Shown here piece by piece: positions 8,659 to 21,620 of a stretch of DNA of 64,000 bases. The position numbers and the translations under genes are program-made. This stretch comes from Gelidibacter mesophilus DSM 14095 (lineage in GTDB: Bacteria > Bacteroidota > Bacteroidia > Flavobacteriales > Flavobacteriaceae). A model generated the notes under the pieces. It saw only the letters and a list, made by a program, of their open reading frames with translations. It did no database searches and was not told where the DNA came from. Where the stretch lies: positions 1-64,000 of the forward strand of contig NZ_AUHD01000017.1 in assembly GCF_000423005.1 (NCBI RefSeq), read 5' to 3'. Numbering within the stretch: position 1 is the first letter of the stretch; every line of letters starts with the position of its first letter.

Positions 8659-8733
8659 GGGCGATTAGCTCAGCTGGTTCAGAGCACCTCGTTTACACCG
8701 AGGGGGTCGGGGGTTCGAACCCCTCATCGCCCA
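8659..8733 (+). tRNA. tRNA-Val (anticodon TAC)
   Basis: A complete 75-base cloverleaf: acceptor GGGCGAT / ATCGCCC, D-arm GCTC..GAGC, anticodon stem CCTCG / CGAGG with loop TTTACAC (anticodon TAC, normal T33), T-arm with GGTTCGAAC-type loop, discriminator A. The 3' CCA is not encoded. Confidence 0.95.
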
Positions 8734-8736
8734 CTA

Positions 8737-8774: not shown

Positions 8775-8849
8775 GGTCCATTAACTCAGCTGGTTCAGAG
8801 TGTCACGTCGACAACGTGGAAGTCACTGGTTCGAATCCAGTATGGACCA
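8775..8849 (+). tRNA. tRNA-Val-like (anticodon GAC) with atypical anticodon loop
   Basis: A 75-base cloverleaf: acceptor GGTCCAT / ATGGACC, D-arm ACTC..GAGT, anticodon stem TCACG / CGTGG, T-arm ACTGG TTCGAAT CCAGT, discriminator A. The anticodon loop reads TCGACAA, so anticodon GAC is preceded by C at position 33 instead of the nearly universal T. The anticodon stem also has a T.G pair. Its 3' 26 bases belong to the repeat that borders the integrated element. It is either a functional but unusual tRNA or one decaying after integration. Confidence 0.75.
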
Positions 8850-8850
8850 C
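8824..8850 (+). repeat. attL: tRNA-Val 3' end, left copy
   Basis: This 27-bp stretch from the T-arm (CACTGGTTCGAA) to GGACCAC is identical to 19565-19591. Here it forms the 3' part of a complete tRNA, as expected for the side that reconstitutes the target gene. Confidence 0.82.
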
Positions 8851-8950
8851 TTTTATGGTATTTTTGTAAATTATAATATATGTAATTGTTTGATTTACAG
8901 GTAAATACATTTTAATAGTTGTTAAATGATTTGATTTAACATCAAAGTTT

Positions 8951-8968
8951 AGGTGACCTATTCGGTTA
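8951..8968 (+). repeat. 18-bp direct repeat, left copy (possible integrase arm site)
   Basis: AGGTGACCTATTCGGTTA occurs here, 100 bases inside attL, and again at 19497-19514, 50 bases inside attR. Its position in both element arms and the same orientation suggest arm-type binding sites for the integrase. Confidence 0.6.
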
Positions 8969-9052
8969 GCTCGAATTATTATCTTTTAGGTTTTAATTCT
9001 ATTATACGTATGGTTTGACTTTCGTTTTTAATGAATATTTAAAAAACGAACT

Positions 9053-9745
9053 ATGCGAACATCAAATTTATCAATTACGTTCTGGCAGAACGTATCAAAG
9101 AAGAAATCTGGCAATGCGCCATTATATGCCAGAGTCACTGCAAATGGCATACGTTTAGAGATCAGTTTGGGTAAGTCCATTCCTATTAAGTCATGGAGTA
9201 AGACTACAAAAAAAATGATTGGTAGATCAAGCGACAGCCAGCAGGTCAATGCCCATATTGACCAAGTTTACTTTAAACTTTTAGAATGCCAACGGCAATT
9301 AAACCTTGAGGGAAAGGTCATAACAGCCAGTGCGATTAAAACCTACTACTACAAGGAGGGCAACGATCAAAAAACTTTAGTTGATTTAATAAACTACCAT
9401 CAAAGGATTATGGCAAACGTCATTAAGCCGAGTACTCTAAGCCATTATTTTACCACAGAAAAATATTTGCTTGAATTTTTGGAATGTTCCATGAAATCAA
9501 AAGACGTAAATTTAATTGATATATCATTTGAATTCATCAGTGAGTTTGAATGCTTTCTTAGAAAAAAAAGCAAATTGAATCATAACGGCGTTATGAAACA
9601 CTTGACAAGGTTGAAGAAGCTGATAAATTTGGCTATCAAATTAGATTGGTTGGTAGGAAATCCATTTGTTAATTTTAGCATAAGATTTTTAAAGACGGAA
9701 CGAGACATTCTTAACAAAAATGAATTGGCCGTCATTGATGGATAG
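9053..9745 (+). pseudogene. Tyrosine recombinase/integrase, truncated before the catalytic domain
   Basis: The 230 residues match the N-terminal part of Bacteroidota phage/ICE-type integrases: an Arm-DNA-binding region (about 1-85, with SITFWQNVSKKKSGNAPLYARV) and a SAM-like core-binding domain (about 105-215). The reading frame stops at LNKNELAVIDG, exactly where family members continue into the catalytic domain carrying the R..HxxR..Y residues. That domain is absent on the other side of the adjoining insertion sequence, so the insertion was accompanied by a deletion. Its location just inside attL is the usual place for an integrase. Confidence 0.85.
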
Positions 9746-9828
9746 GACGGACAAAGTGAACCACACGCAGCGGATGAAAGTGAGCATATCAAAGTAAGTG
9801 CTCAAAATCGATTCATTTGTGGTTAAAT

Positions 9829-10560
9829 TTAGTGATTATCTTTTAATTTTTTGCGCATAGATTCTCCTTTTATATCTATTCTATGAGCTGTGTGCACAAG
9901 GCGGTCCAAAATAGCATCTGCAATGGTCTGTTCCCCAATAATTTCATGCCATGCTTCAACCGGTAATTGGGAGGCAATGATGGTACTGTGTTTACCGTGC
10001 CTGTCCTCTATAATTTCCATAAAAGAATGCCTGTTGATACTATCCAGTGCTTTAAGTCCAAAGTCATCCAAGATGAGCAGATCCTGTTTCTCTAGCTTAT
10101 TGATTTGCTTTAAATAGGAACCATCGGCTTTTGATGTTTTTAGCATGGTAAAGAGTTTATTGGTATTAAAATACATCACTTTGTAGCCCAATGAACATGC
10201 TTGGTGACCAATTGCCGATGCCATATAACTTTTCCCTGCACCTGTACTTCCCGTAATGAGCAGATTCTGTTTTTGTGTTATAAAATTACAACTGGAGAAG
10301 CGTTGTATTTGATTTTTATCTAAACATCTTGAAGCATCATAATCGATAGCTTCCATAACGGCACTATATCTAAAATGTGCCGCTTTTGTCAATCGCTCTA
10401 TCTTTCGGTTCTGCCGGTCATCCCATTCACTTTGGATGAGATACGCAACTAGCTCATCATTGGTATAGGTAATGTTCTGTGGTGACAAACTCCCGTCGAA
10501 GGCTCTATACATACCGTATAGCCTTAACTGTTTCATGTGCTCTAATGTCTGTGCGTTCAT
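9829..10560 (-). CDS. istB: IS21-like helper ATPase IstB
   Basis: A 243-residue AAA+ ATPase related to DnaC that assists the IS21 transposase. Walker A is ITGSTGAGKS (about residues 102-111) and Walker B is LLILDDFGLK; the SQLPVEAWHEIIGEQTIADAILDRL segment is characteristic. It lies 11 bases downstream of istA in the same operon, the standard istA-istB arrangement. It appears intact. Confidence 0.95.
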   Translation of the reverse strand: MNAQTLEHMKQLRLYGMYRAFDGSLSPQNITYTNDELVAYLIQSEWDDRQNRKIERLTKAAHFRYSAVMEAIDYDASRCLDKNQIQRFSSCNFITQKQNLLITGSTGAGKSYMASAIGHQACSLGYKVMYFNTNKLFTMLKTSKADGSYLKQINKLEKQDLLILDDFGLKALDSINRHSFMEIIEDRHGKHSTIIASQLPVEAWHEIIGEQTIADAILDRLVHTAHRIDIKGESMRKKLKDNH

Positions 10561-10571
10561 TGTTTATGGTT

Positions 10572-12116
10572 TTATTTATAATAATTACTGCCTCTAATGT
10601 TATTGTGACTGGGGATATCCGGTTGCTGTTCGACATCTTCATTTAAAGTGTCCCATCCGTTTTTAAGGATGCGTTCTATAATGTTATAGTTGTGCGCACC
10701 ATAATCCAGAGCGCGTTTGCAGGCATTGTCCAGTCGTGCATTGCCCACTTTTTTTGTAAGATGCAATATGCCCAGACAGGATTTATAGGATTGCTCGGGA
10801 TGTTGTTTTTTGTCGAGTATTTTAATGATGAGTTCTTTGCAGTGATCTCCTATCTGGTCAGCCCAGGCAATAAATTTCTCACTGCTCCATTCACTGACAA
10901 AACGGTGTTGAGAAGGCATGTGCTCCTTTATGGAGGTGTACCCGTATTTTTGTTTTGTTATTGAATGGACCGTGAGCAGCTCCTGCTGATGGTAGACCTC
11001 TACAGTACTATCTGAGTAAATAACCTTGACCCGCTTTCCGATATGCTGATAGGGCACGCTATAATAGTGTTTATCCTTTCCGAAGTAAATATGACTGTTT
11101 TTATGGACCGTTGCGTTTGCAGAACGTTTGATCTCATAGCATTTTGAGGGGAGTGCCTTGAGTTGGTGTTTTTCAATCTCTTCAAACAAAGAATGGCGTG
11201 AGTACTCCCGACCTCTAAATGACATGTTGTTATGTAATTTAAGCTGTTCCAGTATGGCTTTGTTGAGTTTTCGCCTATTATGGAACATCTGGTTGCGTAA
11301 TGGTGCAAATACACGGGTATATATAATCCGTACAGCATTTTCAACAATGGCCTTGTCCCTCGGCATATAGGCTCTAGTGGGCAATACTGCCGTTTTGTAA
11401 TACGCTGCAAAGTCGGCAAAGTCTTCATTTACCTTGGGCTCGTACCGGCTGCCCGTGGTCACAGCAGCCCTTAAATTATCAGGGACTAAAGCCTCGGGTA
11501 CTCCGCCGTAAAACCAGAGTGCATTTTCAACGCAGGCCATAAAATCTTCTTTCTTTTGGCTCTCACAGGCTTCTACATACGTGTATTGACTGCTGCCCAA
11601 AACGCAGACAAAGACCTCCAGGTCTTGTATTTCTCCTGTGTGACGGTCCACAATGGAGAGCTTCTTTCCCGTAAAATCGATGAAGAGCTTGTCGCCAGCT
11701 TTATGGGAAAAGTGCATCACTGGAGACACCTCTTTCGCCCACTCCCGATACCAATATCTAAACTGGGTGATCTTGAAGCCATCTGGGTGTTTGCCATAAT
11801 ATTCTTGCCAGAGCAGTTCTTTGGTAACTCCAGTTTTCCGAAGCTCCTTATCAAAATAAGGGAAGTATTTTTCTAGGGTCAGTAACTGTGGGCTCTTTTC
11901 TTTTTGATCGGATTTAAAGAGGTTGTTCAGCTCTTCAAGTGTCATAGCAGACACTTCGTAATTCGTAAGCTGATAACGCTTGAAAAAGTCAATGTACTTG
12001 GTAATGGTACTACGTGAAAGTCCTGTGATTAGACTTGTCTTGCGCTTGCTGACACCTTCGCTGTAGAGTTTAAAAATCTGTTTTATTTTTCGCATATCTA
12101 TTTGTGTATTTGCCAT
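10572..12116 (-). CDS. istA: IS21-family transposase IstA
   Basis: A 514-residue DDE transposase. The N-terminal region has an HTH (about 15-45, ITGLSRSTITKYI). The integrase core shows LFIDFTGKKL (first Asp), ALVPDNLRAAV (second Asp) and AIVENAVRIIYTRVF (Glu), giving an intact catalytic triad. Length is normal for IS21. Start and end lie within the inverted terminal repeat arrays. The element may still be active. Confidence 0.95.
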   Translation of the reverse strand: MANTQIDMRKIKQIFKLYSEGVSKRKTSLITGLSRSTITKYIDFFKRYQLTNYEVSAMTLEELNNLFKSDQKEKSPQLLTLEKYFPYFDKELRKTGVTKELLWQEYYGKHPDGFKITQFRYWYREWAKEVSPVMHFSHKAGDKLFIDFTGKKLSIVDRHTGEIQDLEVFVCVLGSSQYTYVEACESQKKEDFMACVENALWFYGGVPEALVPDNLRAAVTTGSRYEPKVNEDFADFAAYYKTAVLPTRAYMPRDKAIVENAVRIIYTRVFAPLRNQMFHNRRKLNKAILEQLKLHNNMSFRGREYSRHSLFEEIEKHQLKALPSKCYEIKRSANATVHKNSHIYFGKDKHYYSVPYQHIGKRVKVIYSDSTVEVYHQQELLTVHSITKQKYGYTSIKEHMPSQHRFVSEWSSEKFIAWADQIGDHCKELIIKILDKKQHPEQSYKSCLGILHLTKKVGNARLDNACKRALDYGAHNYNIIERILKNGWDTLNEDVEQQPDIPSHNNIRGSNYYK

Positions 12117-12170
12117 GACCTTTTTAATTAAAAAGGTCGGAAAACCTGTACAAATAGAATCGATTTTTAG

Positions 12171-12262
12171 TGGTTCACTTTCATCCGCTGTAGGTGGTTC
12201 ACTTTGCTCCGCTGAGCTATGCTCACTTTAATCCGCTGGAGGTGGTATACTATGCCCGTTGT
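12171..12262 (-). repeat. IS21 right-end repeat array, 24-bp period
   Basis: Four tandem units start at 12171, 12195, 12219 and 12243. The first three share the core TnnTTCACTTnnnTCCGCTG with small changes and the fourth is degenerate. They are the inverse of the left-end units near 9744-9787 and probably are transposase binding sites. Confidence 0.75.
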
Positions 12263-12271
12263 TTGCACTAC

Positions 12272-13120
12272 TCACATTTTGAATAACTTATGAAATTCGA
12301 GTATTGCCAATACCGGTAAATGATCTGAAGCATAGTGCTCAGACACGACACTATGTTTTTTAATTTTAAAAGCTGTTTTGGGTTTAAAAGCTATAAAATC
12401 AATTGCTTTTGTTGGGTTGATAACAGGTATTGTAGGTAAACATAATTCACAGGTACGGGTGAATTTTTGATCAAAAACTTCAATTACCTGACTTTTTTCA
12501 ACAGCATTGAAATCTCCTGCAATAATTATGGGTATTGATTCCTTCTGTGTGATTTCAATGATTTTATGAACTTGAAGCAGTCGGTTTGTATGGTCCTTCT
12601 CAGAATCAAGATGGGTGTTGGCAAACCAAATTGATTTGCCATCCGGCAACTTAATTTGAGACATCGTTAAAATACGAGGTTCGCCAGTTCTTTCGGGACT
12701 TGAAGGAAGATGATAAATCTGAGACTTCAGAATGGGAAACTTAGAAAGAATTGCTAATCCATACGCTCCATTTTGAAAATCTATTGCTTTTCCAAAAAAC
12801 ACGTGAAACCCTAAAGCTTCCGCAATTTGCTCAGCTTGATTTCCAAAACCTGAACGTTCTGTATTGGAATCTACTTCCTGTAGAGCTACCAGGTCTGCTT
12901 TGCTATTTTTAATTACGTTAATAATAGCAGGAAGATCAATTTTGTCTTTTATAGATGGTGGGTTTGCATGATGGATGTTATAGCTTAAAATTCGCAGTTC
13001 ATTACTGATTTCAGTATTTAATGAATCCTGTGCATGTAGTTTCGAGAAATCTGAAATGAGGACCATCATAAAGACTGTCCCCACTATTAAATTTTTAACT
13101 TTTGAATTCTTTGTAATCAT
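12272..13120 (-). CDS. Exported endonuclease/exonuclease/phosphatase-fold hydrolase (second copy)
   Basis: A 282-residue metal-dependent phosphoesterase of the EEP superfamily (DNase I/sphingomyelinase/inositol phosphatase fold). Motifs in order are ILSYNIHH, LVALQEVD, FANTHLD, IAGDFNA, AIDFIAF and ASDHLPV. The N-terminus has a hydrophobic stretch (NLIVGTVFMMVLISDF) ending before HAQ, consistent with a signal peptide. It lies 21 bases after the first EEP gene, last in the susC-susD operon, and ends about 10 bases from the IS right end. Substrate is unknown: nucleic acid, phospholipid head group or sugar phosphodiester all fit the fold. Confidence 0.85.
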   Translation of the reverse strand: MITKNSKVKNLIVGTVFMMVLISDFSKLHAQDSLNTEISNELRILSYNIHHANPPSIKDKIDLPAIINVIKNSKADLVALQEVDSNTERSGFGNQAEQIAEALGFHVFFGKAIDFQNGAYGLAILSKFPILKSQIYHLPSSPERTGEPRILTMSQIKLPDGKSIWFANTHLDSEKDHTNRLLQVHKIIEITQKESIPIIIAGDFNAVEKSQVIEVFDQKFTRTCELCLPTIPVINPTKAIDFIAFKPKTAFKIKKHSVVSEHYASDHLPVLAILEFHKLFKM

Positions 13121-13141
13121 AGTATATTTAGAGTTTTATGT

Positions 13142-13996
13142 CTAATCAGAAATCTTAACTTTAGCAATGACTGGAAAATGGTCGGATATAAATTGGTCAC
13201 CGCGTTGGGCATCGAGGATTTGTATGCTTAAGGGTTTTACAGCGCCTTTATAAAATATATAATCTATTCGATCTTTAGAACTTTTACCTTTTACATTCCA
13301 GCCATTGGAACTGTATTCAGGACCATATACGCGGTCCTTGTCTAGAGTGAGATAGGGATCATACAAATTATGTTCTAAAAGAATTTTAATAGGCTCACTC
13401 TTGGGTGCGCTGTTAAAATCACCAGTAACTAGAACAGGTTCTGTTTTGGCAATGCTTGTTATTTCTTCAGATAATAGCTTGGCACTTTCTATCCGGGCAT
13501 TTTTACCCCGATGATCAAAATGCGTGTTGAAATGATAAAAGATTGTGCCTGTAGCTTTATCTTTAAACCAAGCCCAAGTGACAATGCGTGGCAATGCAGC
13601 ATCCCAGCCTTTTGAAGCGACTTGCATTGGCGTTTTTGAAAGCCAAAATGTATTATGGTCCAGGAGTTCGAACCTCTCTTTTTTGTAAAAAATTGGAGAA
13701 AACTCTCCTTTATTACCCCCTTCACGACCAATACCAACATAACTATAAGTTGGTAAAAGTTGTTGCATATCTATAACTTGTGTATGTGTGACTTCCTGAG
13801 CACCTATAAGGTCAGAATCAAAAAAACGGATGCTATGTGTAAGCCATTCTTTGCGATTCTCCCAGACATTTATGCCGTCCTCAGCACTGTTGTATCTAAC
13901 GTTAAAAGAAACTACGGTAATTTCAGTGTGCTGTTCTTGAGAAATTGCACCGCTGGTTACCAGCAGTGCAAAAATTATATAAATTAGTTTTTTCAT
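13142..13996 (-). CDS. Exported endonuclease/exonuclease/phosphatase-fold hydrolase (first copy)
   Basis: A 284-residue EEP-superfamily protein with signal peptide KKLIYIIFALLVTSGAISQ. Motifs in order are VVSFNVRYN, LIGAQEV, FNTHFDH, VTGDFNSAP, RIDYIFYKG and SDHFPV. The ATG at 13996 overlaps the susD stop (TAATG), so it is chosen over a TTG nine bases upstream and implies translational coupling to susD. It shares only the fold motifs with the downstream EEP protein, so the pair is not a recent duplication. Members of this type occur in Bacteroidota nutrient-uptake loci; the exact substrate cannot be assigned. Confidence 0.85.
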   Translation of the reverse strand: MKKLIYIIFALLVTSGAISQEQHTEITVVSFNVRYNSAEDGINVWENRKEWLTHSIRFFDSDLIGAQEVTHTQVIDMQQLLPTYSYVGIGREGGNKGEFSPIFYKKERFELLDHNTFWLSKTPMQVASKGWDAALPRIVTWAWFKDKATGTIFYHFNTHFDHRGKNARIESAKLLSEEITSIAKTEPVLVTGDFNSAPKSEPIKILLEHNLYDPYLTLDKDRVYGPEYSSNGWNVKGKSSKDRIDYIFYKGAVKPLSIQILDAQRGDQFISDHFPVIAKVKISD

Positions 13997-15735
13997 TATT
14001 TCCAACCTGGGTTTTGTTCAAGATTTGGGTTCAACTGTAATTCTATACGAGGAATAGGATATAGGTAATCTTTATTTTCATCAAACGTTCTATTATTATA
14101 ATCAGGATGTGGATCAATTAGACCATTCGCATCAAGTGTGAAATCAGAACCCAATTTATAATATTGTACACCACTTATAGGGTCTGATGGTTTCTCGCCT
14201 TCATATAAAACAACATTAAGCGTGCCATCACCTGTAAGATCGTAAGATCCTGCCCCTGGAAAATATAAACCGCGAATTGGCTGGGTCAAAGTTTGTCCAG
14301 CTCTCCAACGCACCACATCATCCCATCTAAAGTTTTCCATAAAAAGCTCAATACGTCTTTCACGTCTGATTTCTAAAATAACCCCCTTGTTTACACCTAG
14401 TACCCCCGGATATTGTGATGCCATAAAATTATCTGGTAAATTATTGGAAGCATCAAGGCTAAGATTGGGCATATTGACCCGTTGTCTCAGTAAATTAATG
14501 GATGTGTCCAAATCTTCCTGAGAAAGGCGACCTAATTCAGCTAAAGCTTCTGCATGATTTAATACGACCTCACCAAAACGATAGATAGGTAAATCAGTGA
14601 TTGATTGCCCGTTTGTATCGTAAACAGGTTCTGTAACGTATTTAATAATTTGATACCCTGTAACAGTTGCTCCGAGATTTGGCGCAAGTGGTGTGTTTTG
14701 ACCTTTTCTTGTATAACCTGGTGTACGAATGGTTTGAGCTAAACGGGGGTCTCTGTTTTGCACTTCTTCTGTAAATGATAATTGATTATATCCCGAAAGA
14801 TCAGTAAATCTGGTGCCATCCGCATTAAGATAACTGTTTACAAGATCTTTTGGTATGCCAGGACGCCCATAGGAACTGGTAGTGGTATAATAATTAACAT
14901 TGTGTCCTATATTAAGGTCCTCAGAATATGTTCGGGCTAATATAACCTCCACACCATTGGCGTCGTGAGAATTAAAAAGTTCAGCATAATCTTTATGTGG
15001 ATTACCTGTAGCAAATATCATATAGGGAGAATTGTGGATTAATTCTTGCGAAGCAGCAATGGAGGCTTGCAAGTATTTCTCATAACCATCCATTCCTCTG
15101 TATTTGTTATAGGTGCCTTCATAAAGACCTACACGGGATTTTAGTGCCAGTGCAGTATACTTTGTTACTTCAAATGTGTTTTGCTCTTCTTTTAAATTTT
15201 CAATTGCCCAATCAAGATCTACCAGAATTTTATCAACTATAAACCGACGGCTATCTCGAGGTTTAGTCAAGGCTTCGATGTCATCAGCTAAAATGGGCTG
15301 ATCATACCAAGGAAGCTCTCCAAAACGTTGCAGTTTATCAAAGTAAAATTGAGCTCTAAAAAAACGAGCGACACCACCATAGTGTGCTTTGGCCTCTTCG
15401 TCGTCGCACTTTTCATATTCTTGAAGAAAAAAATTAATATCCCTAAGGTATTGCCAGTTCCACCCACCACCAGAAGTTGGTACGAGACGAGTGCCACGCA
15501 TTTCATCACTTAATTCGGTTTGTATAATATTATCTGTAGTGGCCTCTCCATTGTATATTGAAGTACTAGGCCACATTCTATAAAAACCATTTGTGTATAG
15601 TTGAAGATCACTAGGTGTATTGAAAAATGTTTCAGCAGTAATTTCAGATAAGGGCTGCTTATCTAAAAAATCATTACTGCAAGAATTTATGTTGAAAGCT
15701 ATAAATATTCCGATAATAATATGTTTAAAATTCAT
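13996..15735 (-). CDS. SusD-family nutrient-binding outer-membrane lipoprotein
   Basis: A 579-residue RagB/SusD protein. The N-terminus ends in a lipobox (FNINSC, Cys about residue 19), and NDFLDKQPLSEITAETFF is the usual mature start. TPR-like N-terminal half and C-terminal EIRRERRIELFMENFRWDDVVRW are signatures of the family. It caps the SusC channel and captures ligand at the cell surface. It starts 11 bases after the susC stop. Ligand cannot be deduced from sequence. Confidence 0.95.
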   Translation of the reverse strand: MNFKHIIIGIFIAFNINSCSNDFLDKQPLSEITAETFFNTPSDLQLYTNGFYRMWPSTSIYNGEATTDNIIQTELSDEMRGTRLVPTSGGGWNWQYLRDINFFLQEYEKCDDEEAKAHYGGVARFFRAQFYFDKLQRFGELPWYDQPILADDIEALTKPRDSRRFIVDKILVDLDWAIENLKEEQNTFEVTKYTALALKSRVGLYEGTYNKYRGMDGYEKYLQASIAASQELIHNSPYMIFATGNPHKDYAELFNSHDANGVEVILARTYSEDLNIGHNVNYYTTTSSYGRPGIPKDLVNSYLNADGTRFTDLSGYNQLSFTEEVQNRDPRLAQTIRTPGYTRKGQNTPLAPNLGATVTGYQIIKYVTEPVYDTNGQSITDLPIYRFGEVVLNHAEALAELGRLSQEDLDTSINLLRQRVNMPNLSLDASNNLPDNFMASQYPGVLGVNKGVILEIRRERRIELFMENFRWDDVVRWRAGQTLTQPIRGLYFPGAGSYDLTGDGTLNVVLYEGEKPSDPISGVQYYKLGSDFTLDANGLIDPHPDYNNRTFDENKDYLYPIPRIELQLNPNLEQNPGWK

Positions 15736-15746
15736 TGTCTGGGTTT

Positions 15747-18700
15747 TTAAAATTTAAGAGAAATACCTAAAGAATAGGTTTTTGAGAACGGGTTAGTCTG
15801 GGCTGTACCTCTATTTGTTGAAGGTGATGGACTATTTAAATTTACAGATGCGCTTGCCGCTTCTGGGTCAATATATTCAGTTAAAGGAGAAAAGGTGAGC
15901 AAATTTTCACCACTAAAATAGATACGTAATTTAGTAGCAGATTTTGAAATGATTCCGTCAGGTAGGGTATAGCCTATAGTCAAATTTTTAAATCTCAAAT
16001 AGGCGACACTTTGCAAATACCGGTCATTAACTTTCTCAAGAGAGCCTCCTAAGGCGATATAGCCATAATTTCTTGGGTAATACGCATCTGGGTTTTCAGG
16101 ACTCCAAATTTGATTTGCTAAATCTTTTCTTATAAATGAATTATAAGGTCTGTTATAAGGTCCCCAAAATATTCTGGAATCTGAATTCGGATACCAATCC
16201 TGCTTACCAACTCCTTGGAAAAACATGGATAAATCGAAACCTTTCCATTCTGCACTAGCCAAGAAGCTATAGAGGTATTGCGGTGCGGAGTTTCCAATAA
16301 TTTTGCGGTCTCCCGGATTGTTAACAGTATTTTCTCCTTCTCCTATATAGCCATCCCCGTCTAGATCGATGTATTTAACATCACCAGGTTTTAGTCCGCC
16401 ACCTGCAGAGATACGGTTTGAAACAAAGCTTTGATCTGCGTGATTTGCTATTTCGTTTTCTGTTTGAAAAAGACCGTCAATCTTATAGCCCCATAATTCG
16501 CCTATTGTCATTCCTTCATAAAAATCTACTAGGCTTAGATTAGGGTTGTCAAAATTTGTTATTTTTGTTTTAGAGTTAGATAAATTACCTGTTAATGAGT
16601 AGGAGAATGGATCTTTTGCCAAAATAAAAGAATCTGTATATGTCAATGAAAGTTCGAAACCTTTAGTTCTCAAATCTGCTGAGTTTTCCAACGGAGATCC
16701 CGTTCCTAAAACGCTTGGTAGTGTAGCGCCTGGAGAGAGCATGCCGTCTGTGTCCCTTTGAAACCAGTCAAATGTTGCAGAAAGTTTATTGTCTAAAACA
16801 CTTATGTCTATACCTAAATTCATAGTGCTTACCTTTTCCCAGGTAATTTCTGAAGGGTTTAAAGCAGGAGATTCGATGTAGTTTAATTGACTTCCGTTTA
16901 AAACATAATTGTAAAGGCCATTTGGTAAGGTAGGAAAGTATGCGTAATTGTCAATATTTTGATTTCCTAAAGAACCATAAGATGCCCTAAGTTTAAATTG
17001 ATCAAATGTATTTCCTGTGACATCTTCAAAGAATTGTTCTTTATTGATTAACCATGCTGCAGAAGCAGAAGGAAAAAAGCCCCAGCGATAATCAGTGGGA
17101 AACCTTGATGTGGCATCATATCTACCATTAAGTTCTAGCACATATTTATCTTGATAATCATAAGATAGTCTGTAAAACAAGCCTTGCAATGCCCATTCAG
17201 ATGCACCTCCTGACACCGCGGGATTTGATGTAGCTAAACCCCAGGAGTTTAAATCATTAGAAATCAGATTTTGTTTGCTGCCTGAAATGCTGTTAGTTAC
17301 ATAAGTTTCCTGATTGAATCCAAGTGTAACCTTTAAGTTGTGGTCTCCAAAATACCCCCTATATTCACCATACACGTTTAGGGCATCAAACTTACTTTCT
17401 GTGCGATATTCATTTAAATAGTCATTACCCATGAGCTCTATTTGCTCAGGATAAATGGAGTAAGGGATTCTCGTTGATCGCTGATACCGACTAAAGGTGT
17501 TTCGTCTTATAGCGTAATTGGCATTTAATGTTAACCCATTTAGAGGTTTTATCTCAACGGAAGCGATATTGCTGAACTCATTATTGAAAGTTTGCTGCTT
17601 TGTAGTTCCTTGCAATAAGCCAGCATAAACACCATCACCTATAGTGTAATTATTTAATTCTGTACGCCACAAGGCACCGCCATCAGGATTTACAGGAACA
17701 TAGGACGGTAGGGCATGCACCCAAATTAGACTATTCCAGATATTACGGTAGTTGCCATATTGACTTCCGCTGTGCTCAAGATCTTCTGAGCTATTGTATT
17801 GCATGTTGTTTGAGAACGATAGCCATTCTGAAGCTTTAATATCAACTTTACCTCTTAAATTGTATTTGTCATAAGTGTCTTCTTGAACTTTTAGGATTCC
17901 TGTAGATTTAAAATTTCTGTATGAAAAATAGGCTTTTACTTTTTCAGAACCACCAGCAATAGAAGTTGTATAAATTTGCGTGGGATATTTTTTTCTGAAA
18001 AATGTATCCCACCAATCTGTTTGTCCATAATGAATGTATTGATCTTTACCATTTCGTTGATCAATTACAACACGTGCTAATGAAGGGTTCTGAGAAACTT
18101 CGTAGAGCGCCTGCATGTCTTTTTCTGTGTAACCTGTGTAAGAAGCCCCACTATTATTTCTAAAAGCCTCATCCACTATAGAAACTGCTTTAAAGGGATC
18201 GGTTAAAAAATCAGTATTCATAGTAGGTGAATTGATAGCGGTAGTCACTCCAAAATTAACCCGTACGTTCCCTTTATCGCCATTCTTTGTCGTTACCAAC
18301 ACCACACCAAAAGCACCTCTTGCTCCGTAAATTGCTGCCGCTCCTGCATCTTTAAGCACACTGATGGATTCAACATCGTTGGGGTTTAAATTGCTTAAAT
18401 CGCCTTCAATTCCGTCAATTAAGATTAAAGGGGTACCTCCGTTAATAGAGGTAAAACCTCTGATATTGATTCGCGGTTCAGAGCCCATTTTACCAGTGCT
18501 TTGTGTTACGTTTAAACCAGGGCTTATGCCTTGTAGACTAGTGCTAACGTCAGCAACAGGTCTTTCATCAATATTTTGGGTATTAACTGTGCTAACAGCT
18601 GTGGAGAGTTTTTCACGACTTGTCTTGCCATAACCTATTATTACAACTTCATCCAGTGTACTGTTCTCCAGCTCCATTTGAATTTGTAGTGGGTTTAAAC

Positions 18701-19043
18701 TTGTAATCATAAGCTCCTTGGTTTTAAAGCCGATATAAGAAATTTTAATTGTAATTGGCAACTCAGTTAGAGTAAGGTTGAAATGTCCATCAAAATCTGT
18801 TGAGGTTCCATTTGTAGTATTTAATTGGGTAACGGAAGCTCCTGGTAGTGGCATCCCTAAGTCATCTAGAACTACGCCTTTAAGTGTTTGTTCAATAATT
18901 GTTTTGGAAATCGAGTCAACTGAATGTGTGATATAATGTGTTTCAGATTTTGCTGAGGTAGTGTTAAGCAATAAAGAAATAATTAATAAAAAGGAAATTG
19001 AATTTTTCAAATAGATTAAAATTTTTCGTAATTTGTATTTCAT
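15747..19043 (-). CDS. SusC/RagA-family TonB-linked outer-membrane receptor
   Basis: A 1098-residue transporter. It has an N-terminal signal region (SFLLIISLLLNTTSAKS), a carboxypeptidase-regulatory-like domain (about 50-135, LKGVVLDDLGMPLPGASV), the SusC hallmark TLDEVVIIGYGKTSREKLSTA, a plug domain (about 150-255, with GGTPLILIDGIEGDLSNLNP) and a beta-barrel ending in SLGISLKF. It heads the operon with susD and two phosphoesterase-fold genes inside the tRNA-Val element, and would be energised by the ExbBD-TonB machinery. There is no adjacent anti-sigma or hybrid two-component regulator. Confidence 0.96.
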   Translation of the reverse strand: MKYKLRKILIYLKNSISFLLIISLLLNTTSAKSETHYITHSVDSISKTIIEQTLKGVVLDDLGMPLPGASVTQLNTTNGTSTDFDGHFNLTLTELPITIKISYIGFKTKELMITSLNPLQIQMELENSTLDEVVIIGYGKTSREKLSTAVSTVNTQNIDERPVADVSTSLQGISPGLNVTQSTGKMGSEPRINIRGFTSINGGTPLILIDGIEGDLSNLNPNDVESISVLKDAGAAAIYGARGAFGVVLVTTKNGDKGNVRVNFGVTTAINSPTMNTDFLTDPFKAVSIVDEAFRNNSGASYTGYTEKDMQALYEVSQNPSLARVVIDQRNGKDQYIHYGQTDWWDTFFRKKYPTQIYTTSIAGGSEKVKAYFSYRNFKSTGILKVQEDTYDKYNLRGKVDIKASEWLSFSNNMQYNSSEDLEHSGSQYGNYRNIWNSLIWVHALPSYVPVNPDGGALWRTELNNYTIGDGVYAGLLQGTTKQQTFNNEFSNIASVEIKPLNGLTLNANYAIRRNTFSRYQRSTRIPYSIYPEQIELMGNDYLNEYRTESKFDALNVYGEYRGYFGDHNLKVTLGFNQETYVTNSISGSKQNLISNDLNSWGLATSNPAVSGGASEWALQGLFYRLSYDYQDKYVLELNGRYDATSRFPTDYRWGFFPSASAAWLINKEQFFEDVTGNTFDQFKLRASYGSLGNQNIDNYAYFPTLPNGLYNYVLNGSQLNYIESPALNPSEITWEKVSTMNLGIDISVLDNKLSATFDWFQRDTDGMLSPGATLPSVLGTGSPLENSADLRTKGFELSLTYTDSFILAKDPFSYSLTGNLSNSKTKITNFDNPNLSLVDFYEGMTIGELWGYKIDGLFQTENEIANHADQSFVSNRISAGGGLKPGDVKYIDLDGDGYIGEGENTVNNPGDRKIIGNSAPQYLYSFLASAEWKGFDLSMFFQGVGKQDWYPNSDSRIFWGPYNRPYNSFIRKDLANQIWSPENPDAYYPRNYGYIALGGSLEKVNDRYLQSVAYLRFKNLTIGYTLPDGIISKSATKLRIYFSGENLLTFSPLTEYIDPEAASASVNLNSPSPSTNRGTAQTNPFSKTYSLGISLKF

Positions 19044-19081
19044 GATAATAGAACTATGAATTTATACTGTAGTTTTATTTT

Positions 19082-19117
19082 AAAGAACCCGTTTCTGTTG
19101 TAGCAGAAGCGGGCTTT
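19082..19117 (-). promoter_or_regulatory. Hairpin in the susC leader region
   Basis: CCCGTTTCTG (19088-19097) pairs with CAGAAGCGGG (19104-19113) around loop TTGTAG, with partial outer pairing AAAG/CTTT. On the minus strand it lies about 40 bases before the susC start and is followed by a T/A-rich stretch, so it may act as an attenuator or as a terminator of an upstream transcript. Confidence 0.45.
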
Positions 19118-19496
19118 AAATTATTAGACTGGCTCAAATTTGTTTTTTAATCTTATATGAAGGGTTTTAAATTAGAAGATTATTTTTTTTTGACAAATTA
19201 AGTGTGAATCATTTGGCTGTGGATTACCAAACTATTAAGTAAATGTTAATAGTTGAATACATCAATTATCAGCTTTTATAAGCTATTAATATTACATTGC
19301 TTTAGGGTATTTATATTATAAATAACAAGATCTAATGCAACAATGTTAGCAGAGTGATGATGGTCAACAAGATTAAGTAAGTAGTCGGTATAAATTTTGG
19401 AGATGAAACAGGTTTATTAATCCATTTCATTTTATTTATCAATGAATGATTTTATTTGTAATTTTGAATTTTCGAAATCAGCCCATACGTTCAAAA
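19118..19496. other. Long A/T-rich region upstream of susC
   Basis: About 380 bases between the susC leader hairpin and the right arm repeat. I see no credible coding region and no exact TAnnTTTG element on the minus strand; the susC promoter therefore remains unidentified. Confidence 0.5.
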
Positions 19497-19514
19497 AGGT
19501 GACCTATTCGGTTA
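19497..19514 (+). repeat. 18-bp direct repeat, right copy (possible integrase arm site)
   Basis: Identical to 8951-8968 and in the same orientation. Here it extends into the imperfect palindrome GGTGACC-TATTC-GGTTACC. It lies 50 bases inside attR. Confidence 0.6.
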
Positions 19515-19564
19515 CCTTGGAAGTTTTTGATATTGCAAAGCCCTTGTTTTCAGGGCGATGTGTC

Positions 19565-19591
19565 CACTGGTTCGAATCCAGTATGGACCAC
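19565..19591 (+). repeat. attR: tRNA-Val 3' end, right copy
   Basis: A 27-bp copy of the tRNA T-arm and acceptor 3' strand, identical to 8824-8850, with no matching 5' tRNA half before it. The preceding bases (GCCCT-TGTTTTC-AGGGC) form a small stem-loop that is not a normal anticodon arm. Confidence 0.82.
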
Positions 19592-19600
19592 ATCAAGCAG

Positions 19601-19630
19601 AATCCTGATGCGAGAGCATCGGGATTTTTG
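19601..19630 (+). terminator. Original terminator of the tRNA-Val transcript
   Basis: An 11-bp stem (19601-19611 with 19616-19626, one T.G pair), loop GAGA, then TTTT. It sits 9 bases after attR, where the native tRNA gene would have ended before integration. Confidence 0.8.
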
Positions 19631-20333: not shown

Positions 20334-21620
20334 TCATGACAAAAGCTCTAAAATGCGTTCCAGAGCCATTCCACGCGACCCTTTAATCAGCAGAAATGAA
20401 TTTGTAATACGATTGTTTTGAAGCTTGAATTTTAAATGGTCAAAAGTTTCAAATTTTTCTATGTTTCTTTTTTTGACATTCGTTTTATAAAAATTCTTAC
20501 CCACTAAATGCACTTTCCCAAAGACGTTTTTTTCAAGATAATCTACAATTACCTGATGTTCACTTTCCGCAGTTTCACCCAATTCAAACATATCCCCTAA
20601 GAAGATTATTTTTTCTCCTTGTTGCAATTGATTAAAATTTTCAAGAGCCGCCATCATACTTGTGGGATTGGCGTTATAAGCATCCATGATAATTGTATTG
20701 CTTCCTTTTTTAAGAATTTGCGATCGGTTATTGGTAGGTATGTAATTCTCAATGGCGCTGATAATCTGTTCCGAGGCCACTTTAAAATAAGAACCTATGG
20801 CTACTGCTACAGCAATATTATTAAAATTGTATGTCCCTGTCAGTTGACTTTTAATAACAGAATCATTATAGTTTAGGGTTACATAGGGTTGAGAGTCGAT
20901 GATTTTTAATTTGGTGTCCGAAGAGGTGAGGGACCCAAATTTATGGATATGCTGATAATTTAAAGTTTGTTGTACCTGGGTAGCATCGTTGTCATTGACG
21001 AATATAGTTTTCTTATGAGCCATTAAATAATCATACAACTCGGATTTTGCTTTGATGACCCCTTCAAGACTCCCAAAGCCTTCAAGATGTGCTTTACCAA
21101 AATTGGTAATCAGTCCATAGTCAGGATTGGCGATGGTGCACAAAAATTCAATTTCGTTGGGATGGTTAGCACCCATTTCTACTATTCCAATCTCGGTATT
21201 TCCATTCATGCCTAACAAGGTTAAAGGAACACCAATATGGTTGTTTAGGTTGCCAAGCGTTGCGGTCGTTTTATATTTCTTAGACAACACCGCATTGATT
21301 AATTCTTTGGTAGTGGTCTTCCCATTACTTCCCGTAAGCGCAATTATAGGAACCCCCAATTGATTTCTGTGAAATGCGGCAAGTTGCTGTAAACTCTCTA
21401 GGACGTTTTCTACTAAAATAATCCGTTCATCAATGGCGTAGGCTTCTTCGTCAACCACGCAATATTTTGCGCCAGATTCCAAAGCGTGCTTGGCAAATTC
21501 ATTTCCATTAAAATTGTCTCCTTTTAAAGCGAAAAAAATACTGTCTTTTTCAATTTTTCGAGTGTCGGTACTTACTGATGTGCATTGTAAAAAATGCTGA
21601 TAAAGTGCTTCTATAACCAT
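20334..21620 (-). CDS. murF: UDP-N-acetylmuramoyl-tripeptide--D-alanyl-D-alanine ligase
   Basis: A 428-residue cytoplasmic Mur ligase that adds D-Ala-D-Ala to the peptidoglycan precursor. The N-terminal TDTRKIEKDSIFFALKGDNFNGNEF is the MurF uridine-binding region; the P-loop is ALTGSNGKTTTKEL (about 108-121), followed by GNLNNHIGVPLTLL, EMGANHPNEI, and the C-terminal MDAYNANPTSMMAAL. Complete. It lies downstream of gldJ on the same strand but a strong terminator separates them. Confidence 0.96.
   Translation of the reverse strand: MVIEALYQHFLQCTSVSTDTRKIEKDSIFFALKGDNFNGNEFAKHALESGAKYCVVDEEAYAIDERIILVENVLESLQQLAAFHRNQLGVPIIALTGSNGKTTTKELINAVLSKKYKTTATLGNLNNHIGVPLTLLGMNGNTEIGIVEMGANHPNEIEFLCTIANPDYGLITNFGKAHLEGFGSLEGVIKAKSELYDYLMAHKKTIFVNDNDATQVQQTLNYQHIHKFGSLTSSDTKLKIIDSQPYVTLNYNDSVIKSQLTGTYNFNNIAVAVAIGSYFKVASEQIISAIENYIPTNNRSQILKKGSNTIIMDAYNANPTSMMAALENFNQLQQGEKIIFLGDMFELGETAESEHQVIVDYLEKNVFGKVHLVGKNFYKTNVKKRNIEKFETFDHLKFKLQNNRITNSFLLIKGSRGMALERILELLS

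Follow-up and report, generated by a model that had tools for sequence, protein, structure and literature searches.

A susC-susD operon on a probable tRNA-targeted island, now interrupted by IS21, in Gelidibacter mesophilus

How did an outer-membrane uptake operon come to lie directly behind a tRNA gene in the flavobacterium Gelidibacter mesophilus DSM 14095? The question is raised by a stretch of 64,000 nucleotides of its genome (assembly GCF_000423005.1, contig NZ_AUHD01000017.1, positions 1 to 64,000; hereafter the window), in which an earlier note, made from the letters alone, had described an accessory element between the 3' end of a tRNA-Val(GAC) gene and a second copy of that end 10.7 kb away. 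We conclude, at a probability of roughly 0.88, that this is a mobile island that integrated at the 3' end of tRNA-Val(GAC), was then broken by an insertion sequence (IS) of the IS21 family, and is now probably a fixed carrier of susC, susD and two genes for proteins of the endonuclease/exonuclease/phosphatase (EEP) family. The truncation of the integrase, the repeats that we take for its arm sites and the wider family of elements were absent from that first reading and were added by the analysis reported here.

The two border repeats, at 8824-8850 (left copy, plus strand, the core of attL) and 19565-19591 (right copy, plus strand, attR, the displaced tRNA 3' end), are identical in 27 of 27 bp and delimit an insert of 10,741 bp, as had been claimed. 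ARAGORN calls two tRNA genes in the window, both on the plus strand: tRNA-Val(TAC) at 8659-8734, a chromosomal neighbour, and the target tRNA-Val(GAC) at 8775-8850, whose 3' part we read as element-derived; it calls none at the right copy, in agreement with the claim that the left copy completes a tRNA and the right one stands alone. The island sits exactly at the end of the tRNA-Val(GAC) gene, and each of its borders carries a copy of the tRNA 3' end in direct orientation. A search of the window for direct repeats of at least 24 nt, seeded with 16 nt, returned only the tandem tRNA-Val genes and one unrelated 220-nt pair as other repeat families, and by our own arithmetic the chance of a 27-bp exact match in 64 kb is of the order of 1e-7. 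Genome-wide, the tRNA-Val(GAC) gene is present in a single copy, the right 27-bp copy is its sole other match at 100% identity, and one of the two weaker matches (75-77%) is the neighbouring tRNA-Val(TAC). Directly 3' of the right copy stands ATCAAGCAGAATCCTGATGCGAGAGCATCGGGATTTTTG, and the native terminator region of tRNA-Val(GAC), at 19592-19630 on the plus strand, adjoins the tRNA directly in relatives with an empty site.

Such relatives were found through the right-flank gene murF (20334-21620), for which we searched 59 genomes: the window's own, 8 of the same genus and 50 more distant ones. In 5 of the 8 same-genus genomes (G003, G004, G005, G007 and G008) the end of tRNA-Val(GAC) joins the sequence that follows the right copy in the window, which is the direct junction of the left flank through 8850 with the right flank from 19592 that the earlier note had proposed to look for. 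The BLAST joint falls exactly at 8850|19592 in G005, G007 and G008, and in G003 the first matching base is the one next to the tRNA. In these four, tRNA-Val(GAC) is followed by a terminator sequence almost identical to that behind the right copy, in line with the claim that the right copy is followed by the terminator to be expected behind the tRNA; G004 has a diverged form, which agrees only in its first bases and in terminator shape and whose BLAST joint is not base-exact. Among the other same-genus genomes, G006 has other sequence 3' of tRNA-Val(GAC), the 2.5 kb that separate murF from the end of the contig in G001 contain no tRNA, and G002 has a related integrase gene at the same tRNA-Val(GAC). 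In G007 and G003, a stretch of 0.6 kb behind the tRNA holds about four repeats of parts of the sequence there (L007, L045, right flank).

These junctions also bear on the reverse history, in which the operon would be ancestral here and lost in the relatives, and the 27-bp repeat a by-product of tRNA duplication. Tandem tRNA-Val genes do stand at the site, and tRNA clusters can recombine; the same junction in five of eight relatives nonetheless contradicts an ancestral operon, and against it also stand an integrase fragment and arm motifs at distances seen in other elements (both described below), as well as the fact that none of the 8 same-genus relatives has a SusD of more than 43% identity, a comparison made with SusD, susC and the EEP genes not being separately searched there. 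We consider this history highly improbable. Neither of the findings that the earlier note had named as speaking against insertion, such as the operon at the same place without the repeats, was encountered, and the footprint of integration by a tyrosine recombinase is supported.

The recombinase itself survives in part. The open reading frame (ORF) at 9053-9745 (plus strand; integrase part 9053-9742), just inside the left end, encodes the N-terminal fragment of a tyrosine integrase, with arm-binding and SAM-like domains (Pfam PF17293 and PF13102 only) and without the catalytic domain; Pfam here confirms the fragment that had been noticed at this position. It ends after about 228 residues of its own because an IS21-family element begins at 9739. 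This element occupies 9739-12267 on the minus strand (2529 bp, inverted ends reading TGG...GCA), and its ends were set against a second copy on contig C4 of the same genome, 90% identical over 2.5 kb. It has the features of its family, namely istB (9829-10560, minus strand, PF01695), istA (10572-12116, minus strand, rve and Mu-transpos_C_2), TG...CA ends and terminal repeats. Beyond the IS, the lost half of the integrase does not resume: the second EEP gene ends there, four bases from the IS. The cargo had been described as IS21 plus a susC-susD-EEP-EEP operon: the gene content stands, with istA and istB now recognised by Pfam, while the IS21 proves to lie within the integrase gene, whose catalytic half is gone. 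By eye, no target duplication is evident at either IS21 copy, in the window or at C4, and the flanks differ, as expected after an adjacent deletion; an insertion of IS21 followed by such a deletion, an order that we infer, would account for the lost half. The second copy (L049, G000:C4:50000-66000), in which istA has one internal stop, resembles the window in its surroundings: it starts some 270 bp behind another integrase gene, and a susC-like gene lies downstream of it.

A sister of the broken integrase is found in G002, beside the same tRNA. It is 86.5% identical over 215 residues to the integrase of the window and has a catalytic domain; read from the DNA, its frame is broken near the start. 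No relatives of susC, susD or the EEP genes were found in the 60 kb that were read of this 66-kb G002 contig. In the search for the opposite border of the G002 element, L048 and the initial 60 kb of contig C23 yielded no further att copy with up to 8 mismatches in 29 positions, bar two att-like matches (6 mismatches) at about 59 kb of C23, beyond the tRNA. The murF-side contig of G002 ends in a tail that matches only about the last nine bases of the tRNA; it is probably part of another element and was not counted as support. This stretch beside murF (L048, G002:C12:1-14900) encodes a single-stranded DNA-binding protein, a DUF5712 protein and a TraG/VirD4-type coupling protein of a type IV secretion system, and probably marks where a different mobile element, inserted at this site too, ends.

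Besides the core, the island holds an 18-bp direct repeat, one copy lying 100 bp inside attL and the second 50 bp before the right core. We read the repeats as probable arm sites of the integrase: a putative left site, AGGTGACCTATTCGGTTAGC, at 8951-8970 (plus strand; an exact 18-bp repeat with 19497-19514), and a putative right site, AGGTGACCTATTCGGTTACCTTGGA, at 19497-19521 (plus strand). The motif recurs in G002, at the same position as the left motif of the window and with the same 25 bases as the right one; the left arm of the window differs from both in its last bases. At up to one mismatch, AGGTGACCTATTCGGTTA has two copies in the genome, at 8951 and 19497, both within the island, and among 39 genomes it is otherwise found only in G002 (exact) and G005 (one mismatch), the G005 copy lying inside an ORF with no tRNA in the surrounding 3 kb. 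The distances of the motif to the tRNA sequence in the window, 102 on the left and 80 on the right, are as in the wider family, to which we now turn.

Relatives of the integrase were taken as the best matches from 29 other genomes in a sample of 299 from the Flavobacteriaceae, at 36-49% identity. A tRNA-Pro gene lies beside the integrase in 25 of the 29; the remaining 4 have no tRNA within 1.5 kb. By eye, the attL regions of the 25 tRNA-Pro cases and of 3 paralogues in the genome of the window in most cases contain tandem repeats of a like kind and position. With 15 bases of the tRNA end we looked for the far ends of 12 other elements, and in all 5 that were located a similar repeat starts 78-81 bp before a 13-base tRNA tail; the far end in G132 carries that element's own variant, GGGAACAATTCGGGAACA, as does its attL. 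A 23-base pattern applied to 30 genomes brought out no extra copy as a long duplication of tRNA-Pro at far ends, so that the cores of tRNA-Pro islands would be shorter or diverged. At one tRNA-Pro we observed an expanded arm array of thirteen overlapping pattern matches with a 12-bp period (L168, G083:C12:45871-46008). A near-invariant stretch, TTTGACTTTCGT, precedes the integrase start in many family members (9014-9055 in the window, and the leaders of relatives). A hairpin in this leader appeared in many single-sequence folds and was not recovered by the alignment fold; we make no claim for it.

The generalised pattern GTNACCTATTCGGTNACC occurs in 37 of 397 family genomes, its reversed control in 1 of 397. 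Neighbouring copies on the same contig within 150 kb form 15 pairs among the matches listed, 6.9-121 kb apart and all 15 in the same orientation; this count leaves out the G083 locus with its 13 overlapping matches, single copies, copies on different contigs, and three further chromosomal copies in G155, two on the opposite strand, whose neighbours are at least 200 kb away. The pair in the window is not counted among the 15, since the last bases of its left motif are different. At 30 motif loci, tRNA 3'-end sequence ends 100-115 bp upstream in 18 and starts 78-81 bp downstream in 8, with neither in 4 (L144, L146, L163, L165), compared with 1 of 234 control windows having such sequence. The list of tRNA tails was drawn from the tRNAs of these loci and of the window, which makes this comparison not blind, the narrow spacing not being an input, and the loci include near-identical ones (L148/L149 at 93%, L160/L163 at 94%). 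The upstream sequence belongs to a complete predicted tRNA in 13 of the 18 and a solitary tail in 5 (L147, L153, L155, L157, L158); the 8 downstream cases include the window's own right arm (L159) and G033 (L151), the latter also one of the five located far ends.

These regularities raise the possibility of a Flavobacteriaceae-wide class of tRNA-targeted islands that would move outer-membrane nutrient-uptake operons between genera, here a SusCD-phosphoesterase operon, and that would share one att grammar: a tandem repeat of the type GGTNACC-TATTC-GGTNACC, located some 102 bp inward of the tRNA end where the integrase lies, and some 79 bp ahead of the displaced tRNA end at the opposite border. 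We give such a class, and the grammar as part of it, even odds. Among the open-access papers searched, we found none with three spellings of the arm motif, and the listings of literature searches gave no account of an att design common to the tRNA islands of flavobacteria.

Could the island still move, excised in trans by another integrase of the cell? Its genome encodes four paralogous integrases, and both ends are kept with both arm motifs. The paralogues are, however, only 30-37% identical, the three that lie beside tRNA or tmRNA genes sit at other ones (tRNA-Pro, tRNA-Asp and tmRNA), and the last bases of the left arm differ from the right arm and from G002, all of which makes excision in trans distinctly unlikely. 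We favour an island that is probably stuck, because its integration gene is broken by the inserted transposon.

The cargo lies between the IS and the right end, all on the minus strand, in the order susC-susD-EEP1-EEP2: a susC-like TonB-dependent receptor gene (15747-19043; Pfam, TIGR04056), a susD-like lipoprotein gene (13996-15735; PF07980, PF14322), EEP1 (13142-14005; PF03372) and EEP2 (12272-13120; PF03372), the last with orthologues at this place in other copies of the operon. A match to SusD at E <1e-60 was found in at least 35 of the 299 family genomes, the window's own included, with at most four candidates scored per genome. The best besides the window, at 65-77% identity, come from six genomes, three of which have all four operon genes; in the other three, the 20 kb that were read contain no recognised EEP2. 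Named genomes, scanned by pattern, gave 31 loci, with the nearest SusD in a metagenome-assembled genome (MAG, 84%), Leeuwenhoekiella blandensis (84%), L. marinoflava (83%), Polaribacter sp. DS7-9 (79%) and Pricia antarctica (75%). Alignments with the MAG and Leeuwenhoekiella operons show conservation to extend 80-110 bp upstream of susC (19044-19151), over a hairpin-like CCCGTTTCTG...CAGAAGCGGG; this stretch is possibly a leader or attenuator.

What kind of element brought the operon is suggested by the neighbours of these relatives. On the MAG contig (L182), integrase, VapE-like, primase, NikA and MobA genes precede the operon; in L. marinoflava (L184), primase, NikA and MobA genes lie about 3.6 kb before it, and in L. 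blandensis (L183) a hybrid two-component regulator takes that place. Because the operon lies near relaxase genes in the MAG and in L. marinoflava, we regard the island as probably a decayed integrative and mobilizable element. A 9-kb island in G033, mapped at both ends, itself carries MobA and NikA, and its relaxase is about 50% identical to those of L182 and L184. The island might instead be the remnant of a prophage or phage satellite, given that relatives of the G002 integrase occur in 96 phage records, including Flavobacterium and Cellulophaga phages; all are below 60% identity, as are those in 101 plasmid records. Against a phage origin stand the MobA and NikA genes of the G033 island, the relaxase genes near the cargo in L182 and L184, and the lack of any phage structural domain in the seven main insert genes, as judged by Pfam, with PHROGs and small ORFs not scanned. 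We think a phage origin unlikely and retain the mobilizable element. As side observations, a protein with a Tox-MPTase3 metallopeptidase domain is encoded beside the relaxase genes of the G033 island (L141:13356-14906), and a Piwi-domain protein about 6.6 kb after the EEP2 gene of L. marinoflava (L184:20024-21737).

Several results weigh against parts of this picture. Composition lends the island no support, because the cargo, at a GC content of 0.370, does not stand out from the window as a whole (mean 0.372). No relaxase or mobilization gene is found by Pfam among the seven main insert genes, the relatives that suggest a former mobilizable element have no integrase close to that of the window (in L182 no match of the window integrase exceeds 150 residues), and in the relatives with mobilization genes the operon is oppositely oriented relative to the integrase when compared with the window. 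In 22 of the 31 operon loci, those checked, there is neither an arm motif nor any of three exact tRNA tails; the operon is associated with mobilizable elements in two genomes, but not demonstrably with the integrase family of the window elsewhere. For 7 of the 12 elements no far end was found, in searched stretches of 2-40 kb. G002 has no second arm motif at up to 3 mismatches genome-wide, and a GGTGTGC variant, tried as a mark of both ends and rejected, occurs in 8 of 46 genomes in one copy each and never as an exact pair. With a single motif in G002 and the GGTGTGC variant unpaired, a two-arm design is not demonstrated for every member.

Taken together, we propose that the attP of an element, probably an integrative and mobilizable one, recombined site-specifically with the 3' end of tRNA-Val(GAC), whereby the tRNA would have been rebuilt from the copy on the element and its original 3' end displaced by 10.7 kb. 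The recombinase would have been a tyrosine integrase of the Bacteroidota type, with two kinds of binding site: the core derived from the tRNA and the repeated arm motif, the latter about 100 bp from the tRNA end at attL and about 80 bp from it at attR. IS21 would then have entered the integrase gene, and the DNA between IS21 and EEP2 would have been lost, with the catalytic half of the integrase and probably a mobilization module, leaving what is probably a fixed operon carrier. The probable role of the operon, in turn, is to take up a substrate that is phosphorylated or a phosphodiester through the outer membrane and to hydrolyse it outside the cytoplasm.

EEP1 matches solved EEP proteins (PDB 3g6s, 3mpr and 4c1r), one of them, 4c1r, deposited as a mannosyl-6-phosphatase; the matches of EEP2 to solved structures are weak, and phosphatase activity is not established by family membership because the EEP family also holds nucleases. 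The 4c1r match would suit an ordinary glycan system, with the EEP proteins acting as phosphatases on glycans, rather than phosphorus scavenging. Against this, Pfam shows no glycosidase or other carbohydrate-active enzyme (CAZyme) domain in the operon, a metallophosphatase gene follows EEP2 in one operon relative (L116), and SusCD systems induced by phosphate depletion (PUS loci) and accompanied by phosphodiesterases are described from Flavobacterium (PMC8115612). SusCD with phosphoesterase-family enzymes and without CAZymes is also, by gene content alone, what a PUS-type locus contains. The glycan system remains a serious contender, and we consider the uptake and hydrolysis of phosphoesters somewhat more likely.

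The locus is a clear example, with well-defined borders, of how a SusCD uptake operon can be gained at a tRNA site; an IS insertion has since probably fixed it in place. Its 18-bp arm motif, with its fixed spacing to the tRNA end, looks like a marker of both island borders, as the 15 pairs among the matches listed suggest, and it offers a way to delimit islands by sequence as well as a testable model of integrase binding. If the family-wide grammar is true, both borders of many unrecognised islands could be mapped by pattern search.

Among known systems, the tycheposons of Prochlorococcus are likewise small tRNA-targeted elements with nutrient-uptake genes; the present island differs from them in phylum and recombinase, and no replication module was seen in it. 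The CTnDOT and NBU integrases are Bacteroidota tyrosine integrases that use repeated arm sites besides the core, whereas the motif and distances described here are known from sequence alone. With the Islander-type tRNA islands (PMC4383910) the island shares a regenerated tRNA, a displaced far-end fragment and a tyrosine integrase, to which are added here the destruction of the integrase by IS21 and arm motifs at fixed distances. Its operon resembles the PUS loci in having SusCD beside phosphoesterases rather than glycosidases, and differs from them (PMC8115612) in that the enzymes belong to the EEP family and the location is a mobile island. Also comparable is the 10K genomic island of Riemerella anatipestifer, whose integration and excision have been reported experimentally (PMC6764341): it too comes from a flavobacterium, measures 10 kb, encodes a tyrosine integrase next to a tRNA gene and is bounded by perfect direct repeats, and it differs in its tRNA-Arg target, a 53-bp repeat, mostly hypothetical cargo and a working integrase. 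Flavobacterial tRNA islands of such a size, with an integrase and direct repeats, are already known, the Riemerella one (PMC6764341) being an example, and the island of G. mesophilus joins their kind.

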